The translations under genes and the position numbers were made by a program. DNA of 41,485 nucleotides from Nonomuraea lactucae (GTDB taxonomy: Bacteria > Actinomycetota > Actinomycetes > Streptosporangiales > Streptosporangiaceae), in NCBI RefSeq assembly GCF_003313395.1, contig NZ_QNFZ01000049.1:1-41485 (forward strand), read 5' to 3'. Of this stretch, positions 30,117 to 31,478 are shown in pieces. The first letter of the stretch is position 1. Each line of letters starts with the position of its first letter. Below the pieces are notes generated by a model that did no database searches, was not told the origin of the DNA, and saw only the letters and a program-made list of their open reading frames with translations.

Positions 30117-30734
30117 TCACAGCAGCCGAGGCAGAGCCGGCCGCATGACCCGCAGCACCTGCGTACTGTCCGACAGGTAGAGGTGCGGCACGTCCACGAA
30201 CACCCGCATCGGCCCGCTCTCCACGCCGAGCCCCCGCGCCATCCCCGCCTGGACGTCCGCCAGCGGCACGTAGTTCATGTAGCTGGTGAACACGTTCTGC
30301 GACCGGAACACCGCTGTCATGACCAGCACGCCGTCACGCAGCCTGAAGGCCAGCCCGCTCAGGCACGGCACCGAGTCGTACGGCTCGCCCGGCGTGGTGA
30401 GCGAGATCCAGGCGCTCTTGCTGTACGGCTTGGCCCGCAGCAGGTCGGTCGCCCAGCTCAGCTGCCCCTTGATCCGGGCCCCGTAGCTGTACTTGAACGG
30501 CGGCACCACCGTGTCCTGCGTGAACTTCCTGCAGTAGAGCGCGAGCCGGTCGTGGTCACCGTGCTTGTCGATGATCGGGTCGTCCCGGCTCACCTCGGCC
30601 ATCTCGAACAGCACGGGCGGCCCCTCCATGACCGGGCCGCGGTCGTCGTCGCCGAGCGCGCCGGCCGTCCACACATGGCGCATCAGCCAGATCCACGCCT
30701 CCCCACATGACGCCCACACTTCCGGGTCGGGCAT
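30117..30734 (-). CDS. Short thymidylate-synthase-like protein
   Basis: 205 residues. The core matches thymidylate synthase by eye: YSYGARIKGQ; KPYSKSAWISL (the R-R-I-V-S strand); SVPCLSGLAFRLRDGVLVMT, where C124 aligns with the catalytic Cys; FRSQNVF, where R144 and S145 align with the phosphate-binding Arg-Ser; N154, aligned with the Asn that selects uracil over cytosine; and HLYLSD, with H184 and Y186 contacting ribose in ThyA. Missing are the N-terminal phosphate loop (RTGTGT in ThyA) and the C-terminal folate-closing tail; ThyA is ~264 residues. It could bind dUMP or a related nucleotide but might not methylate it. Stop and start abut the upstream membrane-protein gene (TGA-ATG), indicating a coupled two-gene unit. 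Fold assignment is mine by motif alignment. Confidence 0.68.
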   Translation of the reverse strand: MPDPEVWASCGEAWIWLMRHVWTAGALGDDDRGPVMEGPPVLFEMAEVSRDDPIIDKHGDHDRLALYCRKFTQDTVVPPFKYSYGARIKGQLSWATDLLRAKPYSKSAWISLTTPGEPYDSVPCLSGLAFRLRDGVLVMTAVFRSQNVFTSYMNYVPLADVQAGMARGLGVESGPMRVFVDVPHLYLSDSTQVLRVMRPALPRLL

Positions 30735-31406
30735 TCAGGTCTCCACGTTCGGGAACTGGTAGGGGTTGTGCGGCAGCCGGCGCCGCCTGGTCACGTTGCA
30801 GCGCACGTAGTAGACGGAGTAGTGCACGAGCGCCACCAGCACGAGGCTGCTCAGCAGCAGCAGCGCGTTGGGCTCCTGCCCGCTGAGGCCGGTGACGCCG
30901 ACGGTCAGGTACGCGGAGTTGGCGATGGCCAGCATCATGACGTTGATGCCCGGCCAGGCCAGCGGAGCGTAGGTCTCGGGAAAGCGGGGATCGACCGGCA
31001 GGTTCGGCGACCAGGCGAGCTCGTCCTTCAGCTGCGTCGCGTACAGCAGCCGGAAGTTGTTGATCGCCCGCGCCGTCCGGGCGCAGGCGTTGCCCGCCTC
31101 GATCATGCGCAGGAAGGGCAGCACGCTGAGCAGCCCGAACGCGGCCACCAGCGCGAACAGGTACCAGGGCACGGTGTGCCAGGCCGCGAGATCCCGAGGG
31201 TCCACCACCTTGGCGGTGGTGAGCGCGATGGTCGCCAGGAACGGTCCAGACAACAGGCTCATCGCCAGCCTGGTCATCTTCAGGCGCTCTTCCTTGGCGG
31301 CGAGGTGGACGGCGTAGACGCCGGTGAAGTCCACTGCGGCGAGCTGGAGGAACTGGCTCGACGGCAGCCCGTCCTCCGTCGTCATGCGTGGGGGTGTCTT
31401 CCGCAT
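30735..31406 (-). CDS. Four-helix membrane protein paired with the TS-like enzyme
   Basis: 223 residues from ATG 31406, which has AGGAG 6 bases upstream; longer starts up to 31478 run towards the LysR stop and lack a ribosome site. Hydrophobic helices lie at ~45-67, 77-99, 152-173 and 180-202. Between helices 2 and 3 a soluble helical segment (EAGNACARTARAINNFRLLY) plus a Pro-rich loop protrudes. The two-helix, soluble, two-helix layout recalls pore or effector proteins of nucleotide-signalling conflict systems (SLATT-like), but I cannot assign it to a named family. Its stop directly abuts the TS-like start, and the LysR gene lies 72 bases upstream on the same strand. Confidence 0.7.
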   Translation of the reverse strand: MRKTPPRMTTEDGLPSSQFLQLAAVDFTGVYAVHLAAKEERLKMTRLAMSLLSGPFLATIALTTAKVVDPRDLAAWHTVPWYLFALVAAFGLLSVLPFLRMIEAGNACARTARAINNFRLLYATQLKDELAWSPNLPVDPRFPETYAPLAWPGINVMMLAIANSAYLTVGVTGLSGQEPNALLLLSSLVLVALVHYSVYYVRCNVTRRRRLPHNPYQFPNVET

Positions 31407-31478
31407 GCGGTGCTCCTGTAGGGCCAGCTGACTCCAGTATGAGCACTCTTCGCGGGATGTGTCGGGCATTTCTGCCAA

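Follow-up and report, generated by a model that had tools for sequence, protein, structure and literature searches.

We analysed a window of 41,485 nucleotides from Nonomuraea lactucae (contig NZ_QNFZ01000049.1 of assembly GCF_003313395.1; by the window we mean the whole of this stretch), in which positions 30117..31406 of the minus strand hold two abutting genes, one for a four-helix membrane protein and one for a compact protein with a predicted thymidylate synthase (TS) fold. The two proteins behave as a single unit, which is our strongest result and is well supported. The role that we favour for the pair, with a probability of about 0.4, is the membrane-located processing, or house-cleaning, of unusual pyrimidine nucleotides. 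No description of the pair was found in the open-licence literature searched, which is not proof of absence.

The pairing was followed through a sample of 298 genomes of the order and a phylum-wide sample of 296; for each genome the best ∼9–10 candidates were scored, and an absence means not found at that depth. The membrane family is present in 49 of the 298 order genomes, and a strong TS match lies adjacent to it on the same strand in 49 of 49. TS matches at E ≤ 0.001 occur in 123 of the 298: 104 are strong (E no higher than 3.8e-55), and of the 19 weaker ones 17 lie in open frames of at least 276 codons. The other 55 genomes with a strong TS match all carry the genus label g18, identified as Actinomadura via shared contigs. 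A single scan of contigs found 30 relatives, 24 of them (L001–L024) with the membrane gene upstream on the same strand; the six Actinomadura loci (L025–L030) gave no membrane match. In the phylum sample a TS match turned up in four genomes besides the window's own (E from 1.5e-23 to 5e-4) and a membrane match only in the window's own genome. Within the window's genus the distribution is patchy, with 21 genomes holding the membrane gene and at least 20 without it. The pair is kept together in at least three differing neighbourhoods: beside genes read as ilvB-ilvN-ilvC (L068, L083–L085), beside genes read as nucleoside-type ABC permeases in three genera (L022, L024, L067) and, in Nonomuraea, in an LCP/methyltransferase region. 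An amidohydrolase gene is also present in L022 and L024; in L024 its best NCBIfam match is 5'-deoxyadenosine deaminase, below the cut-off. An earlier note, made from the letters of this DNA alone, had proposed the pairing as a system and had set the co-occurrence of homologues beforehand as its test; the outcome, together with an active-site conservation that tracks the partner (see below), favours the pairing.

The membrane gene is the upstream gene (30735..31406, minus strand, 223 residues) and its stop codon (30737–30735) contacts the ATG of the TS gene (30734–30732; gene at 30117..30734, minus strand, 205 residues), giving a TGA-ATG junction at 30732..30737 on the minus strand; both open frames are as the note had given them. 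The same zero-gap junction is found in 19 of the 24 partner-bearing loci L001–L024, and in 27 of the 49 genomes the alignment ends of the two genes lie 3 nt apart. A putative ribosome-binding stretch read from the sequence, GGAGA (30740..30744, minus strand), lies 5 nt ahead of the TS start, within the 3' end of the membrane gene. A second, AGGAG (31413..31417, minus strand), lies 6 nt ahead of the ATG at 31406, for which reason this start is preferred over a longer TTG start. Against the nearest relative (L001) the differences at codon positions 1/2/3 number 17/10/32 for the TS gene and 16/6/41 for the membrane gene; this pattern and the conservation of both genes in 24 named genomes (L001–L024) argue that both are real genes.

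The AlphaFold2 model of the TS-fold protein has a predicted local distance difference test score (pLDDT) of 92.8 and aligns with TS-family chains over approximately residues 4–200, so that the fold spans most of the chain; the matches are dCMP hydroxylase, MilA and ThyA. The closest family is TIGR03283 (thy_syn_methano), an archaeal-type compact TS of similar length: the window protein matches it with E = 1.5e-11, residues 9–191 against positions 7–199 of the 201-position model, and all 31 of the homologues compared match it at E ≤ 0.01. The window protein nevertheless differs from this family in being actinobacterial and membrane-coupled, and its score of 44.2 bits does not reach the curated cut-off of 174.55. 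The near-complete coverage and the structural alignment show that the enzyme is not a fragment, and its description as 'truncated' has to be given up.

Pocket equivalences were taken from a MAFFT alignment with Escherichia coli ThyA, with further alignments to MilA and Lactobacillus casei TS; archaeal sequences lay outside the alignment. C124 (the nucleophile), R144, S145, N154, H184 and Y186 align with C146, R166, S167, N177, H207 and Y209 of ThyA, as the note had recognized for the Cys, Arg-Ser, Asn and HxY motif, and every one of the 38 partner-bearing rows keeps these dUMP-pocket residues (the rows being the window, L001–L024, 12 further loci and L118, which cover part of the 49 sampled genomes). 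The N-terminal phosphate loop, said in the note to be lacking, is indeed shortened, but an arginine stands at a plausible position: R32 (in DDDRGP; compare NDRTG of ThyA) is invariant in 38 of 38 rows and would be the equivalent of ThyA R21, with the loop left gapped by MAFFT. The phosphate arginines that ThyA contributes from its partner subunit, R126 and R127, are replaced by K106 and S107 in all 38 rows.

In ThyA, Asp169 binds folate, Glu58 is catalytic and the C terminus forms a folate lid; in the TS-fold protein, Asp169 is replaced by N147 (38 of 38 rows) and Glu58 by P53 (37 of 38), and alignment with ThyA finds no C-terminal lid, as the note had said. The set of residues expected of a functional ThyA is thus incomplete. 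Of the 55 genomes of the window's genus, 54 have a ThyX match and the remaining one (G285, L070) a full-length canonical ThyA match; the TS-fold protein should therefore not be needed for dTMP. The structural matches with other chemistry, a phage dCMP hydroxylase (PDB entries 9iqu and 9iqc) and the CMP hydroxymethylase MilA (5b6d, 5b6e, 5jnh and 5jp9), share 18–21% identity with the window protein, and where the window protein carries its base-selecting Asn, MilA carries Asp. In the literature consulted, neither of these enzymes is described with a partner in the membrane or with a nucleotidase. Comparison with MilA (PMC5175136) links Asn at the position of N154 to uracil substrates and Ser at that of S145 to deoxyribose. 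The most likely ligand is a pyrimidine monophosphate of the uracil type, and the chemistry is probably other than the folate reaction.

Two further groups of TS-like genes were seen. One is another compact subfamily (L064:4579-5235, L065:725-1381 and L066:1236-1913), which matches the window family with E of ∼1e-21 to 1e-23 and in which the position of ThyA Arg166 is occupied by His. The other, in two genomes of the window's genus (L075:4165-6803 and L076:4209-7070), is a longer TS-like gene after which comes a gene read as a carbamoyltransferase; it may be part of a cluster of the nucleoside-antibiotic type.

The complete active site is conserved only in rows that have the partner. Partner-bearing rows keep R32, Y84, K106, S107, C124, R144, S145, N147, N154, H184 and Y186 in 38 of 38 cases. 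The partner-less set comprises 50 rows from 48 distinct genomes (L029/L122 and L030/L121 are identical) and covers part of the 55 Actinomadura genomes. Here Thr takes the place of K106 in all 50, and none retains N154 or Y186 (unlike the window protein, the Actinomadura homologues thus lack both the base-selecting Asn and the Tyr of HxY); C124 is kept in 27 and lost in 23, and R32 is kept in 11; S107, R144, Q146, Y152 and D181 are kept in all 50. In a tree of 90 rows (the broken row L072 was dropped, other short TS proteins served as the outgroup and the bootstrap was not fully settled) the partner-less rows form one clade (100/100), which is nested with three partner-bearing g43 rows (99/95). 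With this nesting and this outgroup, the partner was lost in this lineage and not gained elsewhere. On a tree of 53 rows (the partner-less clade and four partner-bearing rows), the presence of the Cys changes at least three times on well supported branches and seven times on the best tree. Such repeated changes suggest that catalysis has been released from selection in the partner-less lineage. The partner-less Actinomadura proteins (L025–L030 and L119–L158), which keep R144, Q146 and D181 while losing the catalytic Cys repeatedly, are candidate pseudo-enzymes with a new role; in L027–L030 the gene lies between genes read as ilvC and serA.

A third gene joins the pair elsewhere. Reading of the neighbourhoods showed a HAD gene directly after the TS gene in several genera, and a profile was built from five of these downstream proteins. 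At E ≤ 1e-40 this subfamily is present in 19 of the 298 genomes, in 19 of 19 directly downstream of the TS gene (7–29 nt) and always with the membrane gene; at this threshold it was found nowhere else in the 298-genome sample. The best NCBIfam match is TIGR02254 (YjjG_YfnB) for all three proteins scanned (E from 8.8e-43 to 1.9e-36). DLDGT, K160 and D185, which we take to be the HAD motif residues, are invariant in the five aligned sequences. The substrates of YjjG include dUMP, dTMP, UMP and 5-fluoropyrimidine derivatives (PMC8475336).

The membrane protein has four supported hydrophobic segments, as the note had proposed, and the structure model (pLDDT 76.9) agrees on four helices; there is a long N-terminal helix and a stretch, 100–151, between helices 2 and 3. 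This stretch is the most conserved part of the protein, with 27 of 52 positions invariant among 25 rows, compared with 4 of 21 to 9 of 21 (19–43%) in the membrane helices. Residues 137–150 are of low confidence in the single-chain model yet contain several invariant residues, a combination that would suit a docking segment. We infer that stretch 100–151 docks the TS-fold protein and that it faces the cytosol. The window protein is below every family cut-off in Pfam and NCBIfam, and in structure searches of its model against PDB and viral libraries nothing rose above the background that helical bundles give. A match to DUF5368 is seen in 19 of the 25 members (best E 0.0023), the window row reaching 13.3 bits where the cut-off is 25. 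Four of the 25 members matched CopD (best E 0.00011) and three matched A13L (best E 0.00062); both were set aside as generic helical matches.

The SLATT effectors (NF033634 and NF033632), which like the window partner are small helical membrane proteins, were considered as relatives following a weak NCBIfam score. SLATT_1 matches 9 of 25 members (best E 0.055) and SLATT_4 matches 7 of 25 (best E 0.12), but the window row scores 10.4 bits against a cut-off of 41. In a profile–profile comparison with 25 SLATT_1 proteins of the same order (hhalign), the probabilities were 0.3 for the domain and 1.7 for the whole protein, no improvement on a reversed control (1.0 and 0.8); the shallow membrane alignment (Neff 1.7) gave this test little power. 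When set against the two-helix SLATT pore fold, the window partner is predicted to have four helices in its 223 residues and shows no clear structural match. Homology to SLATT is not supported by the profile–profile comparison, low in power as it is. The window's own genome encodes a SLATT_1 protein above the family cut-off at another locus (L103, G000:C699:9230-10021), with a weaker SLATT-like stretch just upstream of it.

From these observations we propose how the pair might work. The ancestral operon probably had three genes, for the membrane protein, the compact TS-fold protein and the YjjG-like HAD, and the pair in the window would be the remainder. For the TS-fold protein the predicted ligand is a pyrimidine 5'-monophosphate of the uracil type, in the simplest case dUMP or one of its 5-substituted relatives; the Cys would be placed at C6 of the pyrimidine, as in ThyA, and folate-dependent methyl transfer would not take place. 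The TS-fold protein would act while docked on stretch 100–151 of its membrane partner; the phosphate would be taken off by the HAD or by a general nucleotidase, and the membrane protein would be the dock or the exit. The note had listed a nucleotide-modifying enzyme with a transporter as its alternative; such an enzyme with a membrane partner is the better fit, and the YjjG-like HAD in other genera agrees with it.

Several observations weigh against the house-cleaning role. The HAD is missing from 30 of the 49 pairs at E ≤ 1e-40, and the window's genome has weak matches to the HAD profile (best E 1.4e-6) and no HAD beside the pair; the HAD proteins themselves score 146.4, 125.6 and 130.3 bits, under the TIGR02254 cut-off of 159.9, so that the likeness of the third gene to YjjG/YfnB is to its best family and short of membership. 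The membrane genes of G284 (L067) and G201 (L068) look broken or partial while their TS rows keep the full pocket, and a third membrane match (G285, L070) contains one stop codon; L067 and L068 have a frameshifted look or a first 99 residues that were not found, for which decay or an assembly error is possible. Part of the pocket persists in rows that lack the partner (R144 in 50 of 50 rows, S145 in 44, H184 in 44 and Y84 in 29). The loss of the partner and the decay of the pocket form one evolutionary split, a correlation with a single loss and not independent replicates. MilA, whose preference is for the ribonucleotide, likewise carries a Lys at the position of R126 (PMC5175136), so that the TS-fold protein, which shares this Lys, may prefer either sugar. 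The membrane model is of middling confidence and has no clear match among solved structures, and a dock, a channel and a transporter are therefore indistinguishable. The ligand, the docking, the chemistry and the purpose of the pair are predictions from sequences and models.

The note had preferred the layout of a nucleotide-centred conflict system, with the TS-fold protein sensing a phage or stress pyrimidine nucleotide and its partner opening or disrupting the membrane. A small membrane partner in 49 of 49 genomes that hold the membrane family, a pocket retained only beside it, changes at the Asp169 and Glu58 positions that fit a binder, the weak SLATT-like scores and the patchy presence in the genus would all suit such a system, and a TS domain forms part of a defence unit of E. 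coli that has been validated by experiment (PMC13092281). We nevertheless consider it unlikely. The SLATT comparison stayed at the level of the reversed control, albeit with low power, and PADLOC-DB gave no family for either protein at E ≤ 10. PADLOC scanning of nine neighbours in the window gave five without a match, three with weak matches (E from 1.6e-4 to 4.1e-4) and one, the convergent methyltransferase, matching mad2 (E = 6.4e-14) over its methyltransferase domain, which we take as a generic domain match. Scans of viral contigs, each with two peptide patterns, found no relative. The HAD, moreover, suits metabolism better, and a pure sensor would need neither an invariant catalytic Cys nor ribose-binding residues.

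A mobile or viral origin of the pair was likewise rejected, on the viral-contig result, on the 85 phage records with matches, all of which are below 60% identity (the best-covering has 24% over 92% of the query), and on the sole plasmid-record match, an 11.85-Mb replicon of Nonomuraea gerenzanensis (L118, NZ_LT559118.1). This record is filed as a plasmid; its size argues for a chromosome. In the window the pair is flanked by the convergent methyltransferase gene downstream and a LysR gene directly upstream; control by LysR was discarded, as in the relatives compared other genes intervene or LysR is absent.

It is also improbable, in our estimate, that the pair makes and releases a modified pyrimidine nucleoside, in which case the TS-fold protein would alter C5 (as MilA and the phage 5-hydroxy-dCMP synthase do), the HAD would dephosphorylate the product and the membrane protein would export it: no biosynthetic cluster was recognized around the pair in the loci read, the loci differ, the HAD is absent from most pairs at the threshold used and the folate-binding Asp is Asn in all 38 rows. 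We give still less credence to a regulatory pseudo-enzyme of amino-acid or one-carbon metabolism linked to the ilvC–serA region. As we read the neighbours, the gene does have ilv genes on one side and serA on the other in L084 and several Actinomadura loci, follows ilv genes in L068, L083 and L085 and precedes serA in L023, and the partner-less lineage keeps fold-core residues while having lost the Cys in 23 of 50 rows; the Nonomuraea and other pairs, however, sit elsewhere with the pocket fully conserved. A second, working thymidylate synthase, for which the TS fold, the nucleophile and the very name of TIGR03283 might speak, is scarcely credible given ThyX or ThyA throughout the genus, the changed Asp169 and Glu58 equivalents, the absent folate lid and a score far under the TIGR03283 cut-off.

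Returning to the processing of pyrimidine nucleotides at the membrane, the pair may represent, at rather less than even odds, an undescribed membrane-bound system of the Streptosporangiales in which a TS-fold protein, no longer serving DNA-precursor synthesis, performs covalent sensing of uracil-type nucleotides or chemistry on them that needs no folate, in part of the genomes with a dedicated nucleotidase, and in which loss of the partner frees the enzyme from selection. Few enzymes are as well studied as thymidylate synthase, which is a drug target and is known to be soluble and to use folate. A branch of this family with a membrane partner, an altered folate-binding Asp, a retained nucleophile and dUMP pocket, and decay where the partner is missing is a natural experiment: the pair makes it testable how a TS fold would act without folate and why it would need a membrane protein, and the third gene supplies a concrete class of substrates with which to begin.
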